DNA of 57,761 nt from Streptomyces spiramenti (GTDB taxonomy: Bacteria; Actinomycetota; Actinomycetes; Streptomycetales; Streptomycetaceae): assembly GCF_012034385.1 (NCBI RefSeq), contig NZ_JAAVJB010000008.1, positions 1 through 57,761 on the forward strand, given 5' to 3'. The number at the start of each line of letters is the position of its first letter. Within the stretch, counting starts at the first letter, position 1. This document shows positions 30,904 to 46,004 of the stretch, piece by piece. The translations under genes and the position numbers were made by a program. Under the pieces are notes generated by a model, which saw only the letters and a program-made list of their open reading frames with translations, had not been told where the DNA came from and searched no databases.

Positions 30904-32415
30904 TCAGCCCGACGTGGAGAGTTTGGCGAGGGCCGCGTCGATACGGGCGAGCGTGCGGTCCCGTCCAAGGATCTCCAGCGACTCGAACAGCGGGAGGCCG
31001 ACGGTGCGGCCGGTGACGGCGACCCGCACCGGGGCCTGCGCCTTGCCGAGCTTCAGACCGTGCGCCTCCCCCGCGGCGAGCACCGCGTTCTTCAGCGCCT
31101 CCGCCTCCCACGCCGACTCCGCGACGTGTGCCCGCGCGGTGGTGAGCAGCTCCGCCGCCCCCGGCTTCATCGCCTTCTCCCAGGACTTCTCGTCGACGGC
31201 CGGCTCCGGCAGGAACAGGAAGTCGACGTTGTCGGTGATGTCCGAGAGCACCGTGAGACGCGTCTGCGCCAGGGGCGCGAGGGCGGCGAACGCCTCGGTG
31301 TCGAACTCCTCGGGCTTCCACGGCGCGTACGGGGCGCGCAACCACGGCTCGCAGGCGGCGGCGAATTCGTCCACGGGCAGTTCACGCAGGTGAACGGCGT
31401 TGATCGCCTCGGCCTTCTTGAGGTCGAACCGGGCCGGGTTGCCGTTCACGGCGTCGATCTCGAAGGCGTCGGCCATCTCCCGCAGCGTGAAGATGTCGCG
31501 GTCCTCGGCGATCGACCAGCCGAGGAGCGACAGGTAGTTGAGCAGCCCCGAGGGCAGGAAGCCCCGCTCGCGGTAGAGGTTCAGCGAGGACTGGGGGTCC
31601 CGCTTGGAGAGCTTCTTGTTCCCCTCGCCCATCACGTAGGGCAGGTGGCCGAACTCGGGGACGGCTCCGTCCACGACGCCGATGTCGGCGAGCGCGCGGT
31701 AGAGCGCGATCTGCCGGGGCGTGGAGGAGAGCAGGTCCTCGCCGCGCAGCACGTGGGTGATGCCCATCAGGGCGTCGTCCACCGGGTTGACGAGCGTGTA
31801 GAGGGGCGCACCGTTGGCGCGGACGATGCCGTAGTCGGGCACGTTGTCCGGCGTGAAGGTGAGCTCGCCGCGCACGAGGTCGGTGAAGGTGATCGTCTCG
31901 TCGGGCATACGGAACCGCAGGACGTGGCTGCGTCCCTCGGCCTCGTAGGTGGCACGCTGTTCATCGGTGAGGTCGCGGCAGGCGCCGTCGTAGCCGGACG
32001 GCCTGCCCGCGGCGCGAGCCGCCTCCCGGCGCTGGTCCAGCTCCTCGGTGGTGCAGTAGCAGCGGTAGGCGTGGCCCGCCTCCCGCAGCCGGGTGGCGAT
32101 GTCGGAGTAGATCTCCATGCGCTGCGACTGCCGGTAGGGGCCGTGGGCGCCGGGTGCGGTGCGGCCGGCGTCGAACGGCTCGGGGCCCTCGTCCCAATCG
32201 AGGCCGAGCCACCGGAGCGAGTCGAGGAGCTGCTGGTAGGACTCCTCCGAGTCGCGGGCGGCGTCGGTGTCCTCGATCCGCAGGACCAGGGCGCCGCCGT
32301 GGTGGCGCGCGAAGGCCCAGTTGAAGAGGGCGGTGCGGATCAGTCCCACGTGCGGGTTGCCCGTGGGAGAAGGGCAGAACCGCACGCGGACGGGGGGCAG
32401 GGCTGCGCTAGTCAC
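30904..32415 (-). CDS. gltX: Glutamyl-tRNA synthetase
   Basis: GltX charges tRNA-Glu and, in actinobacteria, also tRNA-Gln before amidation. The class I synthetase (503 aa) has the HIGH-like motif [19 protein letters not shown] and the KMSKS-like motif [11 protein letters not shown], with [18 protein letters not shown] between. The C-terminal anticodon-binding helical domain is complete. The GTG at 32415 overlaps the end of the fumarylacetoacetate-hydrolase-family gene by 8 nt, so they are coupled. Confidence 0.98.
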
Positions 32416-33199
32416 GCTTCACGACCTTGTTGGTGAGGGTTCCGATGCGTTCGACGGTGACGGCGACCTCGTCACCGACGGTGAGGGGACCGACACCTGC
32501 GGGTGTGCCGGTGAGGATGACGTCGCCGGGGAGGAGCGTCATCGCCTCCGAGATGTGGACGACGAGGTCCGTGATGGAGTGCACCATCTCACTGGTGCGC
32601 CCCAGCTGCCGCTGTTCCCCGTTGACCGTGCACATGACGGCGAGGTCGCCGGCGGCGTCCAGGTCGATGTCGGTCTCGACCCACGGGCCGAGGGGGCAGG
32701 AGGCGTCGAAGCCCTTGGCGCGAGCCCACTGGCCTTCGGCCTGCTGCGCGTCGCGGGCGGTCAGGTCGTTGGCGCAGGTGTAGCCGAGGACGACCTCGGA
32801 GACGCGGTCACGCGGGACGCGGCTGCACATGCGGCCGATGACGACCGCGAGCTCGGCCTCGTAGTGCACGTTCTGCGAGAACGTCGGGTAGGGCACGGGG
32901 TCGCCCGGACCGACGACGGTGGTCGACGGCTTGAAGAAGACCACCGGGGCCTCGGGGACGGCGTTGCCCAGTTCCCGCGCGTGCTCGGAGTAGTTGCGCG
33001 CGGCGGCCACGACCTTGCTCGGCAGGACGGGTGCCAGCAGTCGGACCTCGGAGAGCGGCACCTTGTGTCCGCTGCGGTCGAAGTCGCCGAACGGATGGCC
33101 CTTGATCAGTTCGACGAGCTGCCCGCCTTCGTCGGCCGGCTCTCCTTCGATGATGCCGAAACCAACGTTTCCGTCGATGGAGAATCTGGCGATGCGCAC
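32408..33199 (-). CDS. Fumarylacetoacetate hydrolase family protein
   Basis: FAH-family enzymes are metal-dependent hydrolases, decarboxylases or isomerases of beta-keto acids. The 263-aa protein has [18 protein letters not shown] with the metal-binding Glu residues, [17 protein letters not shown] and the C-terminal [13 protein letters not shown]. The substrate cannot be told from sequence; candidates are acylpyruvates or oxaloacetate. Coupling to gltX is conserved in Streptomyces as I recall, without a known reason. Confidence 0.93.
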
Positions 33200-33332
33200 G
33201 AAAGCTGCTGCCCTTCACTCGGAGGCCGGAGCGCGAACGATGTCGGCGCGCGCCGGGCGGTGCGTCGTTGTGCCGCAACAGGGTATCGGGCCGTTGTCGA
33301 CCGGCTCACGGCTCCGGGGGCGGACACGACGG

Positions 33333-33358
33333 CGCCCCCGCCGGTGATGGCGGGGGCG
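33333..33358 (-). terminator. Terminator after conservon 1
   Basis: CGCCCCCGCC and GGCGGGGGCG form a perfect 10-bp stem with loop GGTGAT. It lies 45 bp past the cvnD stop, between conservon 1 and the FAH-family gene. There is no U tract. A second potential stem, GCCGGTGCC-type, is adjacent. Confidence 0.65.
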
Positions 33359-33402
33359 AGCCGGCCGTGCCGGGCACCGGCGGCGCTGCCGCCGGTGGTG
33401 GT

Positions 33403-34014
33403 TCAGCGCAGGCGTGCCATGAGTGCGTGCTCGACCAGCGTGATCAGGGCGGACTTTGCGTCCGACCGGTGCCGCGCGTCCGTCGTGATGATCGGCGCGT
33501 CCGGCCCGATCTGCAACGCCTCCCGCACCTCCTCCGGCGAATACGGCTGATGCCCGTCGAACCCGTTCAACGCAATAACGAACGGAAGACCAGAATTCTC
33601 GAAGTAATCAACCGCAGGAAAACAATCCGCAAGACGACGCGTATCGACCAGCACCACCGCACCGATCGCACCACGCACCAAATCGTCCCACATGAACCAG
33701 AAACGATCCTGCCCCGGCGTACCGAACAGATACAGAATCAGATCCTGATCCAACGTGATACGACCGAAGTCCATCGCCACCGTCGTCGTGGTCTTACCAC
33801 CGGTATGCGTCAGATCATCGATCCCCGCAGACGCAGACGTCATCACCGCCTCGGTCCGCAGCGGATTGATCTCCGACACAGCCCCCACGAACGTCGTCTT
33901 ACCCACACCGAACCCGCCCGCGACCACGATCTTCGCCGACGTCGTAGACCGCGCCGCGGCCCCGGAACCTGCCGGAGCCGCACCGCCCCCACCGCTAGAG
34001 CTTCCGAAGTCCAC
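33403..34014 (-). CDS. cvnD: Conservon GTP-binding protein CvnD (copy 1)
   Basis: CvnD is a small Ras/MglA-like GTPase that ends a conservon and works at the membrane with CvnA, B and C. The P-loop is GGFGVGKTTFVGAV, the switch region DFGRITL, and LFGTPGQDRFW is the G3 motif; ALNGFDG replaces the usual NKxD. The GTG at 34014 overlaps cvnC by 20 bp, and AAAGGG lies upstream. The protein differs from the second conservon's CvnD only in the last residue (Arg vs Gly). Codons are strongly T-ending (GAT, CGT, GGT, ATT), unlike neighbouring genes. Confidence 0.95.
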   Translation of the reverse strand: MDFGSSSGGGGAAPAGSGAAARSTTSAKIVVAGGFGVGKTTFVGAVSEINPLRTEAVMTSASAGIDDLTHTGGKTTTTVAMDFGRITLDQDLILYLFGTPGQDRFWFMWDDLVRGAIGAVVLVDTRRLADCFPAVDYFENSGLPFVIALNGFDGHQPYSPEEVREALQIGPDAPIITTDARHRSDAKSALITLVEHALMARLR

Positions 34015-34177
34015 TGAGCACCCTTTCAAGCAACGTCACATCAGGCTGACCACCCGGCTCACCCTCATGACCAGGCTGATGAATAGCGACAAGCCCGGCC
34101 TCCGCCAGATCGGCGACCAGAATCCGAGCCACACCCAACGGCATCGCCAACAACGCCGAAACCTCGGCAACCGACTT
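33403..34177. repeat. Near-identical direct repeat, copy 1 (cvnD and end of cvnC)
   Basis: This 775-bp block matches 38587-39361 at a constant offset of 5184 bp. I count about four differing bases: two at the cvnD stop end, one near 33457 and one near 33806. The match stops sharply at 34177 inside cvnC, then resumes as patches over 34236-34330 and much of cvnB. Confidence 0.95.
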
Positions 34178-34480
34178 CATCTCGTAGCACAGCTGGCAGA
34201 TCCGCTGGTGTTCCGGAAGCTGGCCATGGAGCCGGGCGGGTTCGACGCTGGTACTGACCAACGCCTCGATGGCCAACTGGTACCGGGGCCTGGTCCGGCC
34301 ACCGGTCATCGCATACGGACGCACCAACGGCTGCCGGGGCTCGGTGCGCGGCGGAACACCCTGCCCGCTCCCGGGCCGTGAGCCGCTGGGCGCCGAAGGG
34401 AAGTCGAAGTGTCCGGGCCGGCCGCCATGGGTCCGGTCGGGGTGGTCGCCTCCGGAAGATCCGGTCGGGGGCGTCGTCAC
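33995..34480 (-). CDS. cvnC: Conservon DUF742 protein CvnC (copy 1)
   Basis: CvnC proteins are DUF742 winged-helix-like adaptors. The 161-aa product has a disordered Gly/Ser/Pro N-terminus (1-50), then LVRPYAMTGGRTRPRYQLAIEALVST, and a helical part SVAEVSALLAMPLGVARILVADLAEAGLV. Two Cys residues (ICQLC) may bind metal or form a disulfide. The GTG at 34480 has AGGAGGAG. The C-terminal third is nearly identical in DNA to the second copy, while the N-terminus differs and is longer. Confidence 0.94.
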   Translation of the reverse strand: MTTPPTGSSGGDHPDRTHGGRPGHFDFPSAPSGSRPGSGQGVPPRTEPRQPLVRPYAMTGGRTRPRYQLAIEALVSTSVEPARLHGQLPEHQRICQLCYEMKSVAEVSALLAMPLGVARILVADLAEAGLVAIHQPGHEGEPGGQPDVTLLERVLSGLRKL

Positions 34481-34582
34481 GTCTCTCTCCTCCTCCTGAT
34501 GCCGTCGGTGTGGCCGTTGCGCTCTCGCCGTCAAGTGTTATCGCACCTTATGGCGAGGGCGGTCAATCCGCACGGTTGTCTC

Positions 34583-35005
34583 CTAGTTGAGCAGACTCCC
34601 CTGGAGTTCGGCCCGGAGGTCGGGGGTGAGGACGGCACCCGCGCGGTCGACGAGGAGCGCCATCTCGTACCCGACGAGGCCGATGTCGGCGTCCGGGTGG
34701 GCGAGCACCGCCAGCGACGAACCGTCCGAGACCGACATGATGAAGAGGAAACCGCGCTCCATCTCCACCACCGTCTGGTTCACCGGACCGCCCTCGAAGA
34801 TGCGGGAGGCGCCGGCCGTCAGCGAGGTGAGCCCCGAGGCCACCGCCGCCAACTGGTCGGCACGGTCACGCGGGAAACCCTCGGACATCGCGAGCAGCAG
34901 ACCGTCGGCCGACACCACGACGGTGTGCGACACCCCGGGGGTGCTCTCCACAAAACTGGTGATCAACCAGTTCAGGTTCTGCGCCGCCTGACTCATCGGG
35001 CTCAC
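34583..35005 (-). CDS. cvnB: Conservon roadblock/LC7 protein CvnB (copy 1)
   Basis: CvnB is a roadblock/LC7-fold protein that probably binds or activates the CvnD GTPase. The 140-aa product reads NLNWLITSFVESTPGVSHTVVVSADGLLLA in parts typical of the fold, with a conserved EMERGFLFIMSVSDGSSLAV. The GTG at 35005 follows AGGAGC and lies one base after the cvnA stop. Five or six residues differ from copy 2. Confidence 0.95.
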   Translation of the reverse strand: MSPMSQAAQNLNWLITSFVESTPGVSHTVVVSADGLLLAMSEGFPRDRADQLAAVASGLTSLTAGASRIFEGGPVNQTVVEMERGFLFIMSVSDGSSLAVLAHPDADIGLVGYEMALLVDRAGAVLTPDLRAELQGSLLN

Positions 35006-35006
35006 A

Positions 35007-38000
35007 TTAACGCTCCTGATCGTTTACGGGGCCGAAGCCCTCGTGGTCGTTCTCCGCGCGGTCCCTACCGGCACCGCGTCCCTGCCTGACGCCGCGGTGG
35101 AGGTCGGTGAGGCGGCCCCGGACATCCTCTGGCGCCCGGGAGACCTGCCGACCGCCAGCCGGCGGCTCGGACCGGGTGTGCTCCACCAGATTGGCTTTCG
35201 GTACCCGCCTGGGGAGGCCCGAGCCAGTGGTGTCCGCGGGCTGCGCCTCGCGGTGCGGGCCACGGCCCCACTGCCGGTCCTGCGGCGTCCGGTCCGGGGT
35301 TTCCACCGGTCCCTGCCGTCCCTGCCGCTGCGCCCTGTCGTCGGGACGACGTCGGGGTTCGCGACGGGGCAACCCTGCGCCGGTGGTGGGGGTTTGACCC
35401 TCCGACACGAGCTCCGCACCGTGAGAGCCTACGCGGTGCGCGGCCCCAGGGGGAGTCGCAGGGTACGCATCCTCACCCTCCGGCCGCCGGTCGGGGGTGG
35501 TGTTCGGGTCGCTCGTCGCGGGGTCGAACCGGTGTCGTGCGGCCGGTTCCGGGTGGGTGGCGGGGGTGTGAGGGGGCTGTGTGCCGGGAGTGTCCGGGCC
35601 GTATTCCTGGCCGGAATAGGTGCCCTCGGGGACGTTGGTCGCGCCCGTGGCCCCCGGGTGGAGCGGAGCCCCGGGGGACGCTCCGTGCCACCCGTTCCCA
35701 CCGCCCGGCCGCCACGGAGCGGTGCGGTCCGCGACCGCACCGTGCGCCCCGTGGGCGGTGGCGCCGTCCGGGGTGCCGTGAGGGGTGCCGTCGGGTGACG
35801 GAGCGTGGGCGGGTGCTGCCGCCCGGGCGTCGGAGGGCTCCACGACGATGCGGCGTTCACCTCGCCGCAGCGACCGGCCGACGTGGTCCACTGCCTGGCT
35901 CTCACCGTAGCGGGAGTCGTCGAAACCGAGCTCGGCGGCGGTTCGCGGGGACGCTTCGACGTCCGGTACGGGGCGTTCGGCGACCACGGGGGAAACGGTG
36001 AACCGCTCGTGCGCGTCGTGGGGGGCCGCCCCGTGCCCGCCGTGGGTGATGCCCTCCGGGAGCATCACCAGACAGGTGGTGCCCACCTGCTCACCGGACG
36101 GCCGAAGCTGCACGCGGATGCCGTGCTGCTGCGAGAGACGTGCCACGACGAACAGCCCCATGCGGCGGGAGACGTCGAGGTCGGCGACGGGAGGTTCGGC
36201 CAGGCGGTGGTTGATCAGCGCGAAGTCCTCGGCCGGCAGCCCCACGCCGCGGTCGTGGATCTCCACCATGACGCGCCCGTCGGGCAGTCGGGTCGCCGTG
36301 ACGCGGACCCTGGTGTGCGGCGAGGAGAACGACGTCGCGTTCTCCAGGAGCTCGGCCAGCAGGTGGACGAGGTCGGTCACGACCGCCCCGTGGAGCTCGC
36401 CCGGGGGCACCCCGACGATGTCGATCCGCTCGTAGTGCTCGACCTCGGAGGCCGCGGCGCGCACCACGTCCAGGAGCGGCACGGGGCGGCTCCAGCTCCG
36501 GTCGGGCTCCCGCCCCGCGAGCACCAGGAGGTTGTCGCCGTTGCGGCGCATCCGGGTGGCGAGGTGGTCGAGGCGGAAGAGGTGCTCCAGCTGCTCGGGA
36601 TCCGCCTCGTTGTCCTCGAGGCCACCGATCAGTTCGAGCTGCCGTTCCACCAGGCTCTGGTTGCGGCCGGCGAGGTTGGTGAACACCGTGTTCACGTTGC
36701 CGCGCAGCAACGCCTGTTCGGAGGCGAGCCTGACCGCCTCGCGGTGGACGTGGTCGAACGCTCGCGACACCTCGCCGATCTCGTCCCGGCCCGTGACGCG
36801 GATCGGGCTGACCCGGGTGTCCACGCGGCCGGGGTCCGGCTGCGACAGCTGGGACATCAGCGAGGGGAGCCGGTGTTCGGCGACCTCCAGGGCGGCGTCG
36901 CGCAACCTGGTCATGTTGCGGCTCATCGCCCGGGCCATCAGACCGGCGATGACGAAGGCGGCGAGCAGAGCGGTGACCGCGAGCGCCGAGTTGGTGATCA
37001 TGCTGGTGCGGGCGTCCGCCGCGACGGCCCGTGCCTCGTGCACGGCGTCCTCGACGAGCTCCCGCTCCACGTCCCGGTAGGCGTCGAATCGGACGGTGAC
37101 CGCCTCGAACCACGCGCTCGGGGTGACTCCGGCGTCGGCGAGCCCGGCGCTGCCCGCGTCGGGCTCCACGAGCGCGGCGGCCATCTCCGCCACCGGGTCC
37201 TGCCCGCCCTCGCCGGCCGCGGCCAGAGCGCGGTCCAGCCGCGCCACGTCCTCCGGCCGGGCGGCGGAGACGAACTCGTTGCGGGCGATGCGCTCCAGGT
37301 GGAGGTACGAACTGAGGGTGACCCGCAGCTGAGCGCGCGCCTCGACGTCCTCGTCCCCCAGCAGGATGTGGGTCCCCAGGGCCCGCTGGAGGGAGCCTGC
37401 CGCCTGAGCGAGGGAGATCGCGTAGACCGAGCGGCCGTAGGAGGCGAGGTCGTCGGAGCCGAGGCCCAGCTCGTTGGCGAAGGACATCACCGGATGCTGG
37501 ATCGCGACGTAGCCCATCTCGGTCTCGGCATCTCCCGATGCGCCGCTCCAGGCGGCCGACCGAAGGTCGTCGAGCCCCGCGGCGGTCTCCGCCACCTCGG
37601 CGGCGCGCCGGTCGAGCCGCGCGTCCGACGGGGCGCTCGCGAGGCGCGACTCGAACTCGGCCCGTGCGCGGTCCGTGTGTGCACGGGTCCGCTCCACGAC
37701 CGGGTCGTCGCTGCTCCCCGACAGGAGCGGCTCCGCGGTGAGGTCCCGCTCGTCAAGAAGTGCGTTGGCGTACGTGGTGGAGGCGCGGACCAGTTCCGCC
37801 ACGCGCTCCGCACGGTCGGCCCCGCGCCAGGTGTCGTAGTGGGTGTGGACGCGCAGACCGGCGAAGACGAGGGCCACGAGGACCGGGAGGAGGAGGATGG
37901 CGTAGAGCCTCGGCGCGACGCGCCAGTTGCGTGGGGCGAGACGGCTGCCGCCCGAAGGGGCGTCCCACTCCCCCACGGGCCGGCCACCAGCGCCGGGAGC

Positions 38001-38087
38001 GGCCGGGGTGAAGTTTCCGCGCTCCGGTGGTGGCGACGACGTGCCGCCCGGGGTTGTCGCGTGACTGCTGCGCCTCACTCGCCTCAC
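35007..38087 (-). CDS. cvnA: Conservon sensor histidine kinase-like protein CvnA (copy 1)
   Basis: CvnA is the membrane sensor of the conservon. In order: basic/Pro-rich N-terminus, a membrane segment (LYAILLLPVLVALVFAGL) near residue 62, an external nitrate/nitrite-sensing-like helical domain to about 360, a second membrane segment (ALAVTALLAAFVIAGLM), a HAMP-like linker, a dimerisation region with FRLDHLATRMRRNGDN, and an ATPase domain with ELLENATSF, EIHDRGVGLP and GLFVVARLSQQHG. The last 350 residues are disordered with HGA and HGT repeats. No response regulator is encoded nearby; output is through CvnB-D. Confidence 0.94.
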   Translation of the reverse strand: MRRVRRSSHATTPGGTSSPPPERGNFTPAAPGAGGRPVGEWDAPSGGSRLAPRNWRVAPRLYAILLLPVLVALVFAGLRVHTHYDTWRGADRAERVAELVRASTTYANALLDERDLTAEPLLSGSSDDPVVERTRAHTDRARAEFESRLASAPSDARLDRRAAEVAETAAGLDDLRSAAWSGASGDAETEMGYVAIQHPVMSFANELGLGSDDLASYGRSVYAISLAQAAGSLQRALGTHILLGDEDVEARAQLRVTLSSYLHLERIARNEFVSAARPEDVARLDRALAAAGEGGQDPVAEMAAALVEPDAGSAGLADAGVTPSAWFEAVTVRFDAYRDVERELVEDAVHEARAVAADARTSMITNSALAVTALLAAFVIAGLMARAMSRNMTRLRDAALEVAEHRLPSLMSQLSQPDPGRVDTRVSPIRVTGRDEIGEVSRAFDHVHREAVRLASEQALLRGNVNTVFTNLAGRNQSLVERQLELIGGLEDNEADPEQLEHLFRLDHLATRMRRNGDNLLVLAGREPDRSWSRPVPLLDVVRAAASEVEHYERIDIVGVPPGELHGAVVTDLVHLLAELLENATSFSSPHTRVRVTATRLPDGRVMVEIHDRGVGLPAEDFALINHRLAEPPVADLDVSRRMGLFVVARLSQQHGIRVQLRPSGEQVGTTCLVMLPEGITHGGHGAAPHDAHERFTVSPVVAERPVPDVEASPRTAAELGFDDSRYGESQAVDHVGRSLRRGERRIVVEPSDARAAAPAHAPSPDGTPHGTPDGATAHGAHGAVADRTAPWRPGGGNGWHGASPGAPLHPGATGATNVPEGTYSGQEYGPDTPGTQPPHTPATHPEPAARHRFDPATSDPNTTPDRRPEGEDAYPATPPGAAHRVGSHGAELVSEGQTPTTGAGLPRREPRRRPDDRAQRQGRQGPVETPDRTPQDRQWGRGPHREAQPADTTGSGLPRRVPKANLVEHTRSEPPAGGRQVSRAPEDVRGRLTDLHRGVRQGRGAGRDRAENDHEGFGPVNDQER

Positions 38088-38534
38088 CTCTCGGTCCGGG
38101 CCGGGGTCCGGCCGCCGTCGTTTGCGGGTTTCACGGGGATTTCAGCACGGGTGGGCGGGGTGGGCCAATCCCCCGGCATCCCTGCCGTTTCACACCTTTG
38201 ACTCTCCGGAAATCCGCCATAGCGCATGATCGGCGGAGAAAACGGATTGATCACCGGGCCGTACGGAGGCGAGCGGGCACGGTCGGTTGCGATTCGAGGC
38301 CGCATACACGCAGAACCGTTGCGGAGCCGGCCGGCCGGTCGTGGGAAGACCCACACGGGGGGGGACGCACACCGGACGGATGGTGTGGCGTGGGGCACAT
38401 GCGCCCGCCGAAGCGCGAGGTGTGGGCCGAGGGGCACACACGCGCGGGCCGGCCGACGGGGCCGCGGGCAGCGGCTGACAAACAGCGCCGCGAGGGACGA
38501 CCGGGCCCGGGACCGAGAACCGGCAGACACAAAG
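38088..38534. other. Leader region of conservon 1
   Basis: These 447 bp separate cvnA copy 1 from the terminator of conservon 2. The part next to cvnA (38190-38260) is less GC-rich (TTTCACACCTTTGACTCTCCGG and GCGCATGATCGG) and probably holds the promoter, but I cannot fix the boxes. No gene is credible here. Confidence 0.5.
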
Positions 38535-38572
38535 AAGTCGGCCGCCGTCCCGAAAGGAACGGCGGCCGACTT
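38535..38572 (-). terminator. Terminator after conservon 2
   Basis: AAGTCGGCCGCCGT and ACGGCGGCCGACTT make a 14-bp perfect stem around CCCGAAAGGA. On the minus strand the stem is followed by CTTTGTGTC. It starts 14 bp after the cvnD copy 2 stop, so it ends conservon 2 before conservon 1 begins. Confidence 0.85.
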
Positions 38573-38586
38573 CGAAGTTCCGGGCG

Positions 38587-39198
38587 TCAGCCCAGGCGCG
38601 CCATGAGTGCGTGCTCGACCAGCGTGATCAGGGCGGACTTCGCGTCCGACCGGTGCCGCGCGTCCGTCGTGATGATCGGCGCGTCCGGCCCGATCTGCAA
38701 CGCCTCCCGCACCTCCTCCGGCGAATACGGCTGATGCCCGTCGAACCCGTTCAACGCAATAACGAACGGAAGACCAGAATTCTCGAAGTAATCAACCGCA
38801 GGAAAACAATCCGCAAGACGACGCGTATCGACCAGCACCACCGCACCGATCGCACCACGCACCAAATCGTCCCACATGAACCAGAAACGATCCTGCCCCG
38901 GCGTACCGAACAGATACAGAATCAGATCCTGATCCAACGTGATACGACCGAAGTCCATCGCCACCGTCGTCGTGGTCTTACCACCGGTGTGCGTCAGATC
39001 ATCGATCCCCGCAGACGCAGACGTCATCACCGCCTCGGTCCGCAGCGGATTGATCTCCGACACAGCCCCCACGAACGTCGTCTTACCCACACCGAACCCG
39101 CCCGCGACCACGATCTTCGCCGACGTCGTAGACCGCGCCGCGGCCCCGGAACCTGCCGGAGCCGCACCGCCCCCACCGCTAGAGCTTCCGAAGTCCAC
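38587..39198 (-). CDS. cvnD: Conservon GTP-binding protein CvnD (copy 2)
   Basis: Same GTPase as the gene at 33403, with P-loop GGFGVGKTTFVGAV and G3 LFGTPGQDRFW; only the last residue differs. The GTG at 39198 is inside the end of cvnC copy 2. By eye, the DNA of both copies is identical apart from about four positions across the duplicated block. Codons are T-ending, so the GC at third positions is far below that of cvnA or cvnB. Confidence 0.95.
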   Translation of the reverse strand: MDFGSSSGGGGAAPAGSGAAARSTTSAKIVVAGGFGVGKTTFVGAVSEINPLRTEAVMTSASAGIDDLTHTGGKTTTTVAMDFGRITLDQDLILYLFGTPGQDRFWFMWDDLVRGAIGAVVLVDTRRLADCFPAVDYFENSGLPFVIALNGFDGHQPYSPEEVREALQIGPDAPIITTDARHRSDAKSALITLVEHALMARLG

Positions 39199-39361
39199 TG
39201 AGCACCCTTTCAAGCAACGTCACATCAGGCTGACCACCCGGCTCACCCTCATGACCAGGCTGATGAATAGCGACAAGCCCGGCCTCCGCCAGATCGGCGA
39301 CCAGAATCCGAGCCACACCCAACGGCATCGCCAACAACGCCGAAACCTCGGCAACCGACTT
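38587..39361. repeat. Near-identical direct repeat, copy 2
   Basis: Partner of 33403-34177 in the same orientation. Long exact identity at synonymous sites, while the cvnA genes of the two operons are diverged, points to gene conversion after an old tandem duplication. Confidence 0.95.
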
Positions 39362-39589
39362 GACCTCGGCCATGCAGAGCTGGCAGATCCGCTGGTGTTC
39401 CGGCAACAGCCCTTGGAGCTGAACCGGTTCGACGCTGGTACTGACCAACGCCTCGATGGCCAACTGGTACCGGGGCCTGGTCCGGCCACCGGTCATCGCA
39501 TACGGACGCACCAGTGGCTGATCGCCGTCATCGTCGTACGGCCCGTGATGCGTGCCGTAGGAACCCTGTGAGGCGGGCGGGGTCGTCAT
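39179..39589 (-). CDS. cvnC: Conservon DUF742 protein CvnC (copy 2)
   Basis: A 136-aa DUF742 protein. The N-terminus is shorter than copy 1 (about 25 residues before LVRPYAMTGGRTRPRYQLAI). The centre differs (PVQLQGLLPEHQRICQLCMAEVKSV in pieces), but the end from SVAEVSALLA on is the same at DNA level. The ATG at 39589 has GGAGGAG five bases upstream. It overlaps cvnD by 20 bp. Confidence 0.94.
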   Translation of the reverse strand: MTTPPASQGSYGTHHGPYDDDGDQPLVRPYAMTGGRTRPRYQLAIEALVSTSVEPVQLQGLLPEHQRICQLCMAEVKSVAEVSALLAMPLGVARILVADLAEAGLVAIHQPGHEGEPGGQPDVTLLERVLSGLRKL

Positions 39590-39652
39590 AGCTCCTCCGG
39601 GTGGACATGAGGTCGGCGATGCGGACAGTGGTGCTCATGTGGGGGAGCTGGG

Positions 39653-40078
39653 TCAGTTGAGAATGCTCGTCTGGAGCTCGGCCCGCAGGTCGGGGGTGAG
39701 GACGGCGCCCGCGCGGTCGACGAGGAGCGCCATCTCGTACCCGACGAGGCCGATGTCGGCGTCCGGGTGGGCGAGCACCGCCAGCGACGAACCGTCCGAG
39801 ATCGACATGATGAAGAGGAAACCGCGCTCCATCTCCACCACCGTCTGGTTGACCACGCCGCCCTCGAAGATGCGGGAGGCGCCGGCCGTCAGCGAGGTGA
39901 GCCCCGAGGCCACCGCCGCCAACTGGTCGGCACGGTCACGCGGGAAACCCTCGGACAACGCGAGCAGAAGACCGTCGGCCGACACCACCACCGTGTGCGA
40001 CACCCCGGGGGTGTTGGACACGAAGCTGGTGATCAACCAGTTCAGGTTCTGGGCCGCCTGACTCATCGGGCTGTTCAT
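39653..40078 (-). CDS. cvnB: Conservon roadblock/LC7 protein CvnB (copy 2)
   Basis: A 141-aa roadblock/LC7 protein almost the same as copy 1. Differences include SNTPGV for ESTPGV, LALSEG for LAMSEG, GGVVNQ for GGPVNQ, and the C-terminal LQTSILN. The ATG at 40078 shares one base with the cvnA stop (TGATG) and follows AGGAGC, so the two are coupled. Confidence 0.95.
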   Translation of the reverse strand: MNSPMSQAAQNLNWLITSFVSNTPGVSHTVVVSADGLLLALSEGFPRDRADQLAAVASGLTSLTAGASRIFEGGVVNQTVVEMERGFLFIMSISDGSSLAVLAHPDADIGLVGYEMALLVDRAGAVLTPDLRAELQTSILN

Positions 40079-43000
40079 CAACGCTCCTGCCGGTAGGGGG
40101 AACCGAGTCCCTGTCCGGTGTTCTCGCCACCGGTCGTCGTTCCCGCCTGACGGCCCTGCTGGATGCCGCGGCGGAGATTGGTCAGTCGGCCCCGGACATC
40201 GCTGGGAGACCGGGAGACCTGCGGGCCGGTCGGCGCCACCTTGGTCTCCTTCTCCTTGGCGGTGCCGGCGACCAGGTTGGCACGCGGTACGCGCCGGGGA
40301 AGCCCCGAGGTGGTGACGCCACCGGCGGCCGGGGAGCGCAACTGCTCCGCACGGCGCCACCGTTCGTCGTTGGGCGATTCCCAGTTGGGTCCGTTGCCGG
40401 TCGCCGGCGGCGCCGCTGGCGTCTCGGGCCGGGACGGGGGCAGCTCCCGCGGGGCGGGCGGCGCCGGGGCGGGCGCCGCGGGGGGCTGGTGCGCCTGCGG
40501 CGGCGCGGAGGCCTCGCGGGGCAGCTCGTGCGGGGCCGGGGCGCCGTTCCGCGCTCCGAACCAGGTCGACTCGACCTGCTCGAAGATCGGGGTGCGCTCC
40601 GAAGGCCCGCCCGCGCCGTAGTGCTGCCCCTGGTGCAGCGCCGTCTGCTCCTGCTGCGGCGGCGGGGTGTAGTGCCCGAAGAGGTCGTGCGTCCCTTCCG
40701 CCTGCTGCGACCCGATGGCCGGCATCTCGGTGGTGGGCTGGTGATCGCCGGGCCCGGGACCGCTGTAGCCGTGCTGCTGCCCGTGGCGGTCGCCCGTCCG
40801 GTTCCCGTGGGGCCCGCCGCCGTACGCGCCGTGCGGGTCCTGCCCCTGCGGTGCGTGGTGGACGCCGAACGGTCCGGTGAGCTCGCCGGTGTCCCCCGGG
40901 GAGGAGACGGGGCTGGTGAACTCCGTCGCCCCACCGCCGCCCTGGTGACCGCCCTGCGCCGGGTAGCCACCGGTCGCCCCTTGACCGTGGCCCGACTGCT
41001 GCCCCGGGTGACCGGCGCCGCCGACGTGCCCGTGCGGCTGGCCCTGACCGGGCGGCAACGCGCCCGCCGGGGGGTAGCCCCCGCCGTCCACGGCCGGGAA
41101 CTCGCGGGTCGCGGAGAAGTCGTCGCCCGCGGGGTACTGCCCGGGGGCGTGGCCTGCGCCGAAGCCCTGGTCGTGACCGCGCGGGGCCTCGCCGTCCTGC
41201 ATCGGGGGTATTCGCCCGGTGTCCTCACCACGGCTCGCCCAGCTGGGACGGTCCGCGGGACGCGCGGCGTTGCCTGCCCCGGGGGCCTGGCCGGTGGGGC
41301 CGGGTCGCCCGCCCGCCGGCTCGGCGTCCTGGGGACGGGCCGTGCCGGGGCGGGAAGGGAGCGCCGCCCGGGTGGGCGGAGCGGACATCTGGTTGCGGTT
41401 CGGCGGCCCGCCGACCTCGGCGTCGCCGGGCTGGCGGCGCGGCGGCGTCTCACGGCGCAGCGTCGCGGACGGCGGTTCGGCCGCGCCCCGGGCGGCGGCC
41501 CCGTTCGGGGCGGGCTTGGGACGCCCGGCGGTCTGGGCCACCTCGGCGGGCAGCATGACCAGCGCGGTGGTGCCGCCGGAGTCCGAGGGACGCAGCTGGA
41601 TGCGGATGCCGTGCCGGAGCGACAGACGGCCGACCACGAACAGGCCCATGCGGCGGGAGACGGAGACGTCCACCGTCGGCGGGTTGGCCAGTCGCTCGTT
41701 GATTTCCCCGAGGTCCTCGGGGGAGAGGCCGATGCCCGTGTCGTGGATCTCGACGAGGATGCGCCCGTCGGGCAAGGCGTGACCGGTGACCTTGACCTTC
41801 GTCTGCGGCGAGGAGAACGATGTCGCGTTCTCCAGCAGCTCGGCGAGGAGGTGCACGAGGTCGTTGACGACGCGGCCGGCGACGTCGGTCTTGGGGACCG
41901 CCGACAGCTCGATCCGCTCGTACTGCTCCACCTCGGACGCGGCGGCGCGCAGCACGTCCACGAGGGGGACGGGGCGGGTCCAGCGACGTCCGGGCTCCTC
42001 GCCCGCGAGGACGAGGAGGTTCTCACCGTTACGACGCATGCGGGTCGCGAGGTGGTCGAGCTTGAAGAGAGAGGCGAGCTGGTCGGGGTCGGCCTCGCGG
42101 GACTCCAGCTCGGAGATCAGCGACAGCTGCCGCTGGATCAGGCCCTGGCTGCGCCGCGAGAGGTTGGTGAACATCGCGTTGACGTTGCCTCGGAGCAGCG
42201 CCTGCTCGCCGGCGAGGCGGACCGCTTCGCGGTGCACGTCGTCGAACGCCTCGGCGACCTTGCCGATCTCGTCCCGGGTGTGGACACCGACCGAGGCGAC
42301 CGAGGTGTCGATGTCCTGCGGGTCGGCCTCGCTCATCTGGCGGACGACCTCGGGCAGGCGCCGGTGGGCGACTTCCTGCGCGGTGTCCTGCAGTCGCCGC
42401 AGCGACCGGACCATGGAGCGGGCGACGACGAAGGCGCCGACGAGCGAGATGCCGAGGACGAGGATGATCACGGCACCGTTGAGGATGGCGTCGCGCTGTG
42501 CCTCGTCGCGAAGCTGCTCCGCCTGGCGCTCCATCTCGGCCAGCAGGGTCTGCTCGATGGAGTCCATCGCGTCGACCTTGGAGCGCAGCAGGTCGTAGGC
42601 GTCCTGGTCGGAGAGCTGCTCGTCCGCCAGCGCGCCCTCGGCGTCGAAGACGCGGTCGGCGAGCTGACCGGCGCTCACCACGTTGGCGATACCGCCGTCG
42701 AGCGGCTCGGTGATCTCGTCGTTGCCGTAGAGCTGCTGGAAGCTCCGCATCGACGCCTGCTCGTTCTGCTGCGCCGTCTTGCCGTAGCGCCAGTCGCTGG
42801 ACGAGAAGCCGTCGCCGCCGCGGGCCGAACCACCGCTGATCATGGCGCGCTGGATGGAGGCGTATTCCTTCGCGGCGGAGAACGCGGCCAGCGCGCGGGT
42901 GGAGTTGATCATCTCCTCGTTGCTGGTGGCCAGGGCCATGTCCTGGGAGAGCGCGAGGAGGGAGTCGATCAGCTCGTTGTAGCGACTGACGGTCTGGGAT

Positions 43001-43635
43001 ATGTACGCCGGGTCGTCGTACGCCTCGTCGCGGATGTCGCGGAGCTGGTTGAGCTGCCGGCCGATGCTGAGCACGCGGTTGCTGATGCCGGAGAGGGTGC
43101 TGTCGTCGCGGTCGATGCCGAGTGTCGCGTCGGCGAATGCGGACCGGGCACCGTCGGTGCGGTCGCGCAGCGTCGCGATGTTGCTGCCCTTGGCGCTGCT
43201 GTCACTGATCAGCGGCCCGGCGGAGCGGTCGCGCTCCTCCTGGAGCGCGGTCGCCAGGCGGGTCGCCTGCCGCGTCATGTCGGTGAGCAGCTGCATGTTG
43301 TCCAGCTGCTCGATGTCCTGGTTGGTGTCCTGGATACGGAAGACACCGAGCGCGGTGGCCGCGACGACGGGAAGAGCGATCAGCGAGACCAGGCGGGTGC
43401 TGATGCGCCAGTTGCGCATCGCCAACCGCGAGCCGACGGCGTTGGCCTCGGCGGGGTCGGTCTCGGGGACCGGGCCTTCGCCGACGCGCTCGGGGGCGGC
43501 GTCGTCGGTGCTGCCCGCGGCATGGAGGGGCTCGCCACCGTGGGGCTGCTGCCCTGTCGCCGGGCTGCTGCCCGACGGACCGCTGGGCCCCGCCTCCCCG
43601 GTGGCACTGCCTTCCTTCTTGAAACGTCCCTGCAC
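40078..43635 (-). CDS. cvnA: Conservon sensor histidine kinase-like protein CvnA (copy 2)
   Basis: An 1185-aa sensor with the same layout as copy 1. The first membrane segment is LVSLIALPVVAATALGVF near residue 85; an external nitrate-sensor-like domain follows; the second segment is AVIILVLGISLVGAFVV; then come HAMP, FKLDHLATRMRRNGEN and the ATPase motifs ELLENATSF, EIHDTGIGLSP and GLFVVGRLSLRHG. The C-terminal 400 residues are a Gly/Gln/Pro/His-rich disordered tail ending RRVPRANLV. The GTG at 43635 begins QGRFKKEGS. The sensor domains of the two CvnAs share little, whereas the downstream B-D proteins are nearly the same. Confidence 0.94.
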   Translation of the reverse strand: MQGRFKKEGSATGEAGPSGPSGSSPATGQQPHGGEPLHAAGSTDDAAPERVGEGPVPETDPAEANAVGSRLAMRNWRISTRLVSLIALPVVAATALGVFRIQDTNQDIEQLDNMQLLTDMTRQATRLATALQEERDRSAGPLISDSSAKGSNIATLRDRTDGARSAFADATLGIDRDDSTLSGISNRVLSIGRQLNQLRDIRDEAYDDPAYISQTVSRYNELIDSLLALSQDMALATSNEEMINSTRALAAFSAAKEYASIQRAMISGGSARGGDGFSSSDWRYGKTAQQNEQASMRSFQQLYGNDEITEPLDGGIANVVSAGQLADRVFDAEGALADEQLSDQDAYDLLRSKVDAMDSIEQTLLAEMERQAEQLRDEAQRDAILNGAVIILVLGISLVGAFVVARSMVRSLRRLQDTAQEVAHRRLPEVVRQMSEADPQDIDTSVASVGVHTRDEIGKVAEAFDDVHREAVRLAGEQALLRGNVNAMFTNLSRRSQGLIQRQLSLISELESREADPDQLASLFKLDHLATRMRRNGENLLVLAGEEPGRRWTRPVPLVDVLRAAASEVEQYERIELSAVPKTDVAGRVVNDLVHLLAELLENATSFSSPQTKVKVTGHALPDGRILVEIHDTGIGLSPEDLGEINERLANPPTVDVSVSRRMGLFVVGRLSLRHGIRIQLRPSDSGGTTALVMLPAEVAQTAGRPKPAPNGAAARGAAEPPSATLRRETPPRRQPGDAEVGGPPNRNQMSAPPTRAALPSRPGTARPQDAEPAGGRPGPTGQAPGAGNAARPADRPSWASRGEDTGRIPPMQDGEAPRGHDQGFGAGHAPGQYPAGDDFSATREFPAVDGGGYPPAGALPPGQGQPHGHVGGAGHPGQQSGHGQGATGGYPAQGGHQGGGGATEFTSPVSSPGDTGELTGPFGVHHAPQGQDPHGAYGGGPHGNRTGDRHGQQHGYSGPGPGDHQPTTEMPAIGSQQAEGTHDLFGHYTPPPQQEQTALHQGQHYGAGGPSERTPIFEQVESTWFGARNGAPAPHELPREASAPPQAHQPPAAPAPAPPAPRELPPSRPETPAAPPATGNGPNWESPNDERWRRAEQLRSPAAGGVTTSGLPRRVPRANLVAGTAKEKETKVAPTGPQVSRSPSDVRGRLTNLRRGIQQGRQAGTTTGGENTGQGLGSPYRQER

Positions 43636-44184
43636 TAGCGTCGCAACCTCTGGACAAGGCGCCCCACCGCTGCTGCGGCGGAACGGTGTTGAACCTGGAG
43701 CCAGGAGCTCCGTGGCGGTCGTGGGTGACCTTAGCGTCCCCGGATCGGCCGGCGTCGTGGTGGTGGTGTGCACCTGCGGCGTGACGGTCGATATCCCACG
43801 CGGTCCGTGGAATTCCAGCACAGAGCCACATCTCCAACAAGGGCCGGGATCACTCCTGGGCCATGATTGACGCTCCGCGCGCACCCCACCACGAGCCGTG
43901 GGGGGCAAGTTCGGAGGAAGCGGACTTTTGCTCGTCACCGCGCCACCGCCGCCGCCGCGCGACCAGGACGCGCAGGACCACCGGAAGTCGGCGCGTGCAC
44001 CCATTGACCGTCTTTGTCCCGGCGGGCCACCGCACCGGAATGGCGCCTTTGCATCCCCTCTCGTGATGAACCTCACAGGCGATCACCTGGGGCTTCGGCG
44101 TGGCGAGCCGACCGCCCGTCCTAGCCTCTGGTGGATGAGCCGTCCGGCGGCGAACCGAGCAGGACCGACGAAGAGGCAGCCCTC
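43636..44184. other. Divergent region between cvnA copy 2 and the repeat-peptide gene
   Basis: About 550 bp with no gene on either strand. It should hold the conservon 2 promoter and that of the small ORF. I note TTGACCGTCTTTGTCC near 44005 and CGTCCTAGCCTC near 44117 on the plus strand, without a convincing pairing. A hairpin CCCACCAC/GTGGGG-like is at about 43886-43905. Confidence 0.45.
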
Positions 44185-44361
44185 GTGAAGACGACACTCA
44201 GCAACCGCCCCACCGCCAACCCGCGTCGCACCACCCTCGTGCACCTCGCGGACACCGCAGACCTCACGCCGGAGGCCGGCCCCGTGGCGGAGTCGGTCGT
44301 GCTGCCGACCCAGACGGCGAACCCCCGCCGCACGACGCTGGTGGACCTGCCCGACGCGTGA
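44185..44361 (+). CDS. 58-aa repeat peptide with two TANPRRTTLV units, unknown function
   Basis: The GTG at 44185 (GAGG eight bases upstream) opens a 58-residue ORF that I cannot assign. It contains PTANPRRTTLVHLAD near residues 9-23 and QTANPRRTTLVDLPD near 43-57, separated by an acidic spacer. The two copies use different synonymous codons (cgtcgcaccaccctcgtg vs cgccgcacgacgctggtg), which argues that the peptide, not the DNA, is conserved. There is no signal peptide. Precursor peptides of ribosomal natural products can look like this, but no modifying enzyme lies nearby. It is divergent from conservon 2. Confidence 0.65.
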   Translation: MKTTLSNRPTANPRRTTLVHLADTADLTPEAGPVAESVVLPTQTANPRRTTLVDLPDA

Positions 44362-45427
44362 CGTCGCGACGGCGTCCCGGGCCTGAGGGCCCGGGGCACC
44401 GTCCGGACGAGGCGCGGTCACGTCGTCCGCGAACCGGGACCCGGTGGAGCCGATTCGGTGGGCTCTTCCGGGTTCTTGCCTTTCCGGGGCGGGCGAGGGG
44501 CGCGGCGTCGTGCAGTCCTCTTCCCGTGTCGGCCCACTGCTCCTCCCCCACCGCCGGCGGCACGAGGGGCGACGAGCGCGGCAGTGACGGGGCGTGGGGC
44601 GTGACGAGGCTGGCGCAGGAGGCCGGGCGCCGGGCAGATCGCGGGAGGCTCCCCGGAGGCCACGGGCGCGCCGGTCGGCGGCGCGGGACCTCGGCCCGCG
44701 AGGTGACGACGTGTCGGTGGCGGCTGCGCGGTGGGGCGCCGTGGCTCGTCGGACACTCGCGACGCCGCGGGTGAGCGGCCGACCCACGCGGTGGGGGCTG
44801 CCCCGGACAGCACCGAACGGGTGGTGCGGGGCGGGCCGTCGGCGGGGTGCCGGCCCGCACGGTGGCGGTACACGGGGGCCCGGGGCCGGCCGTCGGTCGG
44901 GGATTTCACCCTCGGCGTCCGGAGGCGGGCTCGGACGCGGAACGGCGCCCCGCCGGGGGGCGGGGCCGGCCGCGACACGTCACGGTGCCCGCGGGGCCGT
45001 GTCCGCGGTCGGCACGGGGCGGTGGCGGTGGCTCGTCACGGCGCCGTCGTGGCCGCGCGACGTGACACTCCGCACGGTGCGGGGCGGCGGCCCGCCGACG
45101 CGGGACCGGTGCGGCTCGGCCTGCCCGGAGGCGGCGGTGTCGAGCCCCGTCCACGGCGCCATGAGGCGCCGCCCGCTCGACCGTCCGGGGGCTTCCCGGC
45201 GCCCTCCCCCGCCGGGACTGGGCGGTCCCGGGAACCGGACGAAGGGGCCGCGTCGCACGCCCGATGGCACGGCGCGCCGCTGCGCTGGGTGGTGGTGGCC
45301 GCCGTGGGCGCGGGCCCGGCGGGGTGACGACCGGCCTCCGCACGCCCGGTCCGTCCCACGTGCGCTGCCGGAGCGCCGCACCGCCGCACGCTCCCGGGCG
45401 TGCGGCGGTGCCCGACGCACCTGCTCA
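44362..45427. other. 1.1-kb gene desert
   Basis: No frame here resembles a protein; long frames are Arg/Gly/Pro strings without ribosome sites. The region is full of CGTCACGG, GCACGGTG and GCACGGGGC words (for example near 44990 and 45016). Composition is like the desert before gltX. The right end abuts a MITE-like element. Confidence 0.5.
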
Positions 45428-45591
45428 GAGCGTGTTTGAGACCCCACGTCGGCTTAGCTCGCGGCGCCAGATGCGGTCAGCTGCACGGCGGAGGGGAACC
45501 CTCATACCGGGTTGTATTCGGGTGTTCCTGACAACGCAGCAGGCGGCCGTAGCTGGCGTCGCGGGCCCGGCGTGGGGTCTCAAACGCGCTC
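45428..45591. mobile_element. MITE-like element with 21-bp terminal inverted repeats and TCA target duplication
   Basis: The left end GAGCGTGTTTGAGACCCCAC-G (45428-45448) matches the complement of the right end (45571-45591) with one mismatch. TCA flanks both sides (45425-45427 and 45592-45594), a 3-bp target duplication of the TNA type made by IS5-group transposases. The 164-bp interior encodes no transposase, so it would need one in trans. The interior is less GC-rich (GGTTGTATTCGGGTGTTCC) than its surroundings. The remaining bases to accE hold nothing recognised. Confidence 0.85.
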
Positions 45592-45718
45592 TCAGCGCCG
45601 GAGGCGCCGATCCGCACCGCCCGGTGACGGACCCACGGTGGTGGAGCGGCACCCCCCCCCGCAGAGGCGCTCCGGGTGGCGAGGCCGGTGACGGGGCGCG
45701 GGCCGGGATGCCCGAAGG

Positions 45719-45925
45719 TCAGTGCTGCCAGCTGTGGGCGGAGCGGAAGCCGGTGGTCCGCTCCAGTCGGCGCCAGCCGACGGAGGTGCGGTGGACGGCG
45801 ACGGGGCGCGGCGTCGTCTCGCGGGCGCGGCCGGCGCGGGCGATCAGCAGAGCGGTGACGGCGGCGAGCTCCTCGTCGCTGGCGTTGCCCCGTTCGACCC
45901 GCACCAGGTTGGTATCGGTGGTCAT
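45719..45925 (-). CDS. accE: Acyl-CoA carboxylase epsilon subunit
   Basis: Epsilon subunits are small actinobacterial proteins that stabilise the alpha-beta carboxylase complex. The 68-aa product has NLVRVERGNASDEELAAVTALL and the C-terminal Trp/Arg-rich GWRRLERTTGFRSAHSWQH, both typical. The ATG is at 45925 with GGGGAGAA upstream. It follows the carboxyltransferase gene by 79 bp on the same strand, as accB-accE does in Streptomyces. Confidence 0.93.
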   Translation of the reverse strand: MTTDTNLVRVERGNASDEELAAVTALLIARAGRARETTPRPVAVHRTSVGWRRLERTTGFRSAHSWQH

Positions 45926-46004
45926 GTGGTTCTCCCCTCAGATCTGTGTGGCTGCGGTGATCGGTTCGATGCCGCCCGGCCCGCCGCCGTGGCGGCCGGC
46001 CGCG

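Follow-up and report, generated by a model that had tools for sequence, protein, structure and literature searches.

The window analysed here, a 57,761-nucleotide stretch of Streptomyces spiramenti DNA, contains a genuine single-copy gene for a protein of 58 residues, which carries two copies of one short motif and is under selection at the protein level. We propose, with a probability of about 0.6, that this small protein is a disordered bivalent adaptor or ligand that docks by its two linear motifs on a partner, for which Cvn1 is a candidate. We favor this reading because the protein has no confident fold and because its conserved octamer occurs twice, joined by a linker that changes freely. 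The gene and the features around it are listed in Table 1.

Table 1. Positions in the window of the small protein gene, its control elements, and neighboring genes
Feature	Position	Strand	Basis
Small protein gene, almost certainly the SCO5545 orthologue; 58 aa, GTG start	44185–44361	+	Translation, family orthologues, dN/dS
Shine-Dalgarno-like GAAGAGG, 8 nt 5' of GTG	44170–44176	+	Sequence
Motif copy 1, TANPRRTTLV	44212–44241	+	A11 N12 P13 R14 R15 T17 L18 invariant
Motif copy 2, TANPRRTTLV	44314–44343	+	T44 A45 N46 P47 R49 T50 L52 invariant
Crp-like operator GTGA-N6-TCAC (GTGATGAACCTCAC)	44063–44076	+	166 of 174 loci with site
−10-like hexamer TAGCCT	44122–44127	+	TANNNT spacing in relatives
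Candidate Crp target DNA at the small-gene promoter, GTGAGCAAACTCACA			
Control region common to the small gene and the divergent cvnA1	43636–44184	.	Position; ScbR2 24-mer in locus L058
cvnA1, histidine-kinase-like first gene of conservon 1	40078–43635	−	Gene call; Pfam NIT, HAMP, HATPase_c
FAA-hydrolase-family gene, here named fahA	32408–33199	−	Pfam FAA_hydrolase
gltX, class I Glu/Gln-type tRNA synthetase	30904–32349	−	Pfam tRNA-synt_1c
Acyl-CoA carboxylase epsilon subunit gene, here named accE	45719–45925	−	Pfam ACC_epsilon

Translation of the forward strand from 44185 to 44361 gave VKTTLSNRPTANPRRTTLVHLADTADLTPEAGPVAESVVLPTQTANPRRTTLVDLPDA*, 58 codons in all. Despite an in-frame GTG at 44131, which would give 76 residues, 44185 is the likely start, because the N-termini of the orthologues lie at MKTT or near it. 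The initial annotation had described a small ORF with two TANPRRTTLV units whose codons vary at several third positions, and had considered it translated because of its conservation at the protein level. The units were found as described in this ORF: 7 of their 10 codon pairs differ, at the third base only, and every change is synonymous. The protein-level conservation was borne out by orthologues throughout the family and by dS values exceeding dN. Given this conservation, the protein is almost surely translated in the cell.

The ratios for the three nearest relatives were between 0.18 and 0.24. Comparison of the window with S. lonarensis gave a dN/dS of 0.033/0.179 (0.18, with dS about five-fold greater than dN); the values were 0.069/0.286 for S. 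bohaiensis and 0.172/0.942 for S. otsuchiensis. Over 2,996 of 3,000 random pairs the median was 0.47, because the linker and the tail drift and dS is partly saturated. Codons for the invariant motif residues vary freely among 174 distinct coding sequences, although the pattern used to pick these sequences already required most of the residues concerned; for R14 they were CGC (80), CGG (57), CGA (18), AGG (7), and CGT (6). By the terms of the initial annotation, frame-disrupting differences in close strains or an absence of homologues from relatives would have counted against its reading. Instead, the three nearest strains all preserve the reading frame, and homologues occur throughout the family.

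Searching with the protein gave matches at E ≤ 3e-7 in 34 of 36 relatives from the genus; the two genomes lacking a match were G001 (79% complete) and G010 (93% complete). A profile made from a 17-row alignment (A1) matched 291 of 297 Streptomycetaceae genomes at E ≤ 1e-3, including 285 of the 289 good assemblies and members of 15 of the 17 genera. Four of the six misses (G061, G077, G088, and G097) have a diverged two-motif ORF just 5' of fahA, and another (G197) is a 71% complete assembly that yields no fahA either and is thus uninformative. G074, the single genome of its genus in the set of 297, lacks the small gene. In G010 and G074, cvnA and fahA lie side by side with no motif between them; because both genes are kept in these genomes, we conclude that the small gene is essential to neither. 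The profile search of up to 268 genomes outside the Streptomycetaceae produced no convincing relative; nine genomes had weak partial matches (E of 8e-4 to 0.0097) spanning 18–53 model positions, a number above the two or three expected at that limit. By these comparisons the small gene appears confined to the Streptomycetaceae so far. Plasmids and phages gave no match to the protein, and a mobile gene was therefore rejected.

The motif residues were completely conserved in alignment A1, with A11, N12, P13, R14, R15, T17, and L18 of the first copy and T44, A45, N46, P47, R49, T50, and L52 of the second identical in all 17 rows. The repeated linear motif, of eight residues, can be written [IT]ANPRRTxL, and its two copies are separated by a variable linker; they lay 30–54 residues apart in a set selected for having two motifs. 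The initial annotation had suggested looking for one to four repeats. Both copies were found in 170 of 171 distinct ORFs by a relaxed motif and in 160 by the strict one; these ORFs, from 186 loci, were picked by score against a profile that itself contains both copies. The sole exception (L125) has only the second copy in recognizable form. A short motif conserved in two copies on a variable linker, as found here, is what characterizes a repeated-linear-motif protein.

The motif was also sought elsewhere by scanning 61 genomes with a 17-base DNA pattern for ANPRRT that disregards the final N, and 24 loci away from the small gene were inspected among the matches listed. One case among these matches was recurrent, a long-frame protein in four genomes of another family, which we take to be of the von Willebrand type; its resemblance was judged a coincidence. 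The remaining matches listed were one-offs, mostly in spurious-looking frames.

The window protein had no match in Pfam and no sequence relative in the PDB at E ≤ 10. Matches of 37 orthologues to Pfam and NCBIfam at E ≤ 1 were scattered, with any one family appearing in at most 2 of the 37. The earlier statement that the peptide has no known family therefore stands for Pfam, NCBIfam (above cut-off), and the PDB. An AlphaFold2 model based on 37 sequences had a mean pLDDT of 62.2, a pTM of 0.14, and one six-residue helix. This low-confidence model is suggestive, and no proof, of disorder; the protein is probably mostly unstructured, and disorder may be its working principle. No signal peptide was apparent by eye, and the protein is probably cytosolic.

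If docking is bivalent, each motif copy would engage one of two similar sites on a partner, which could be a dimer or two molecules, and docking would bridge, clamp, or block that partner. The small gene has an activator-type promoter of its own, which bears a Crp-like operator and lies in the DNA that also serves as control region of the developmental conservon cvn1.

The neighborhood was surveyed by mapping six genes in 121 loci with the small gene, 120 fetched and the window; six genomes were represented twice, leaving 115 distinct loci. In all 120 testable loci (114 distinct), the nearest mapped upstream gene was cvnA on the opposite strand; the remaining locus had too little upstream DNA for the test. 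Downstream, fahA followed on the same strand in 101 of 121 loci, at a gap of 73–1804 bp with a median of 122 bp, and the usual order was small gene, fahA, and then gltX. In 19 of the 120 loci with enough DNA, the downstream gene was instead accE or pccB on the other strand. With duplicates removed, the counts were 95 for fahA, 19 for accE or pccB, and 1 too short. Pfam also identified a Roadblock (CvnB) gene and a carboxyl transferase gene among the neighbors, and the NIT sensor domain of the window CvnA1 was recognized at an E of 5.1e-34. The 40 gene-called neighborhoods, judged by position, held no further gene at a constant place beside the small gene.

On a CvnA1 tree made by a quick search, the 19 loci, of which the window is one, group together and need one change (L187 was left out of this count). 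Because they form one group, a single inversion appears to have moved the small gene together with the conservon block. In the window, positions 30904–44361, with the small gene and two conservons, are inverted relative to most sampled Streptomyces; therefore fahA and gltX stand behind the second conservon. The inversion is common to S. lonarensis, S. oceani, S. sulphureus, and others. All sampled members of the inverted clade have retained the small gene, although it is parted from fahA-gltX there.

Between the small gene and accE lies a MITE-like element of about 174 bp (45423–45596) with 30-bp terminal inverted repeats that are 90% complementary. At least 40 further copies, with 83–96% identity, are present in its own genome, as judged from 40 scored among 102 candidates.

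The locus could be tied to the literature through a ScbR2 binding site. PMC4595836 describes sco5544–5545 as a divergent pair with a promoter bound by ScbR2 in EMSA, and gives the bound 24-mer. Locus L058 contains this 24-mer without a mismatch, 242 bp ahead of the small gene. Because it sits between the small gene and cvnA, the small gene is almost certainly orthologous to S. coelicolor SCO5545, which has the same place, divergent from cvnA1 (SCO5544); the two were compared by locus. The initial annotation had placed the ORF before conservon 2 in the opposite direction. Its divergent orientation is correct, but the numbering is not: judged from the SCO5544–5545 pair, the neighboring conservon is the orthologue of cvn1, not cvn2 of the published numbering. 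In Table 2 of PMC4595836, SCO5545 is annotated as a putative uncharacterized protein with a fold change of 0.952. Literature searches by the SCO5545 name and by the motif letters returned no paper, and the papers examined on cvnA1 contained no functional description of it.

In the promoter region, 166 of 174 loci have GTGA-N6-TCAC within 300 bp upstream of the small gene. The chance expectation, from shuffling the bases of 60 loci, was about 0.004 per locus, to be read with the fact that the loci are related and are not independent trials. TANNNT starts 60 bp after the operator start in 136 loci and 59 bp after it in 25 (161 of the 166), in a count that took the hexamer nearest to 60 bp and so favored that spacing. 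Five loci had no TANNNT between 50 and 72 bp. The 59–60 bp spacing is borne out because an unselected count of every TAGNNT from the operator to the start codon placed 138 of 142 at that distance. One longer sequence, GTGAGNAAACTCACA, was found once each in 12 of 26 genomes, in 11 of them at the small-gene promoter and in G010, a genome lacking the small gene, at the matching place before fahA; it was absent from ten genomes outside the family. GTGA-N6-TCAC is also kept 5' of fahA in both G010 and G074, where the nearest hexamers are 66 and 82 bp away. Within 400 bp before fahA, none of 18 genomes outside the family had GTGA-N6-TCAC, and five of them had the looser GTG-N8-CAC.

PMC10033298 gives GTG-N8-CAC as the GlxR consensus and cites GTG-N6-GNCAC second-hand as the S. 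coelicolor Crp consensus. The operator of the small gene, whose closest known counterparts are those of GlxR/Crp-controlled promoters, fits the former and lies at a fixed distance from the −10-like hexamer. It differs at one position from the Crp consensus as cited second-hand. Binding and control of the small-gene promoter by Crp are predicted.

Since its linkage to cvnA1 is constant, Cvn1 is the first candidate for the partner. A sharper form of the bivalent-ligand proposal, with the partner named, is that the small protein is a dedicated accessory factor of Cvn1, using its two motifs to bind a protein of that system, CvnA1 or a different one, and modulating the kinase/GTPase cascade. We regard this as possible but rather unlikely, and any link of the small protein to Cvn1 is putative. 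The divergent arrangement with cvnA1, found in every testable locus and kept through the inversion, argues for it, as does the finding that 18 genomes outside the family lack both the small gene and a recognizable cvnA in the 1.5 kb before fahA. The role of cvn1 in development also fits: BldC and BldD (PMC5859096) and WhiAB (as cited in PMC6428758) are reported at the cvnA1 promoter in addition to ScbR2, and WhiB (PMC4850268) is reported at cvnA1. Partial distance correlations over 99 loci were 0.36 for the N-terminal part of CvnA1 (controlling for GltX and FahA), 0.11 for the kinase part, 0.39 for FahA, and 0.14 for GltX. The value for FahA is as high as that for the CvnA1 N-terminus; the control sets differ among these correlations, and the test does not discriminate between CvnA1 and FahA. 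Two further points against a dedicated Cvn1 factor are that G010 and G074 keep cvnA1 without the small gene, and that shared promoter DNA alone could explain the linkage.

The analogy for such a factor comes from CvnE and CvnF, which are likewise encoded by extra genes that go with a conservon; according to PMC13343842, CvnA8 is bound by CvnF8 and stimulated by it. The same paper has CvnE and CvnF accompanying CvnA proteins that lack a sensor, whereas the CvnA1 next to the small gene carries its own NIT sensor. CvnE is a P450 and CvnF has a GAF domain; the small protein has no domain of either kind and no Pfam match to P450 or GAF. Moreover, the cvnE and cvnF genes are downstream in the cvn operon, whereas the small gene is upstream of cvnA1 and divergent from it.

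A still more specific version, which we consider distinctly improbable, combines these elements. A cAMP-Crp-controlled, two-headed peptide would dock a dimeric Cvn1 component and make the developmental switch responsive to nutrient state. In many species a conserved rare AUA codon before the first head might further tune the level of the peptide. This codon is at residue 10, where Ile is encoded by ATA in 77 of 124 orthologues (e.g., L002 and L262) and, in the 120 loci, in 56 of 79. By comparison, the share of ATA was 1.25% for the 12,671 Ile codons of 806 called neighboring genes, and 3 of 122 for the other Ile codons of the small gene itself. Mapping ATA against the other Ile codons onto the CvnA1 tree takes ten changes or more. 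In the window copy, residue 10 is Thr, and the copy has no ATA. The kept ATA may reflect regulated translation or an overlapping DNA signal.

In codons 2–16 of 1,183 called genes, 45 of 765 Ile codons were ATA, at least 25 of these in CvnA2-type kinases. Such kinases (e.g., L236, L241, and L250) keep an ATA in their first membrane stretch, where one position has ATA for 45 of its 67 Ile codons, and the Ile three codons earlier is never ATA; 78 instances were counted by pattern, with some genomes represented twice.

In an alternative reading, the small ORF is a leader peptide whose own translation controls fahA-gltX by attenuation or ribosome stalling. In its favor, a rare codon just ahead of motif 1 could slow the ribosome. 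The position of fahA next on the same strand in most loci (101 of 121), at a short median gap, and the operator kept 5' of fahA in both genomes without the small gene are consistent with such a role. The inverted clade decides against it as the main reading: in 19 of 120 loci the small gene is followed by a mapped gene of opposite strand, and the protein is still conserved, although these loci represent one inversion and hence one natural experiment. In addition, L038 has two called genes intervening, and the C-terminal motif is conserved as well as the N-terminal one. The window copy lacks the ATA codon, and no Rfam RNA was matched at E ≤ 1 in 43600–46000, which also led us to reject a structured RNA at this locus. 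A leader function is, on balance, improbable.

Even less probable is a RiPP-like precursor that is modified and cut at the Arg-Arg pair. The initial annotation had suggested a modified peptide with Arg-Arg as a possible processing site, and the short ORF, the Thr-rich repeats, and two sub-threshold NCBIfam matches to lasso-peptide precursors (albusnodin and triculamin types) fit that picture. The small protein resembles these precursors in being a short ORF with one weakly similar stretch, but it scores far under the curated cut-offs (12.4 bits versus 30, and 11.4 versus 65), and each match was found in only 1 of 37 orthologues (E ≤ 1), the window copy. It also differs from them in having two internal motif copies, and no maturation genes were recognized beside it. 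An adjacent conserved enzyme had been proposed as a check; by position in the 40 gene-called neighborhoods, the constant neighbors are cvnA and either fahA-gltX or accE-pccB. The Arg-Arg pair lies inside the conserved TANPRRTxL, and conservation extends to both ends of the protein and does not mark a core; the pair looks like part of a recognition motif rather than a cleavage site. The neighbors and the family scores thus led us to reject a processed peptide, and they gave no support to modification.

Finally, the frame might be suspected of having arisen by chance or of being an artefact of repeats, and so of being no gene, as might any short frame in GC-rich DNA rich in spurious ORFs. This idea is refuted because the small gene is conserved across genus and family, and the dN/dS ratios, together with the presence of both copies of the motif in all but one of 171 ORFs, leave it next to no likelihood.

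Being nearly universal among the Streptomycetaceae genomes examined, not convincingly found elsewhere, and equipped with one motif in two conserved copies, the small protein is probably basic to the life of these antibiotic producers. Its gene has a control region in common with cvn1, a conservon that directs both the formation of aerial growth and the making of antibiotics. If the two-headed peptide does dock on Cvn1, it would represent a new kind of cytosolic signaling ligand.
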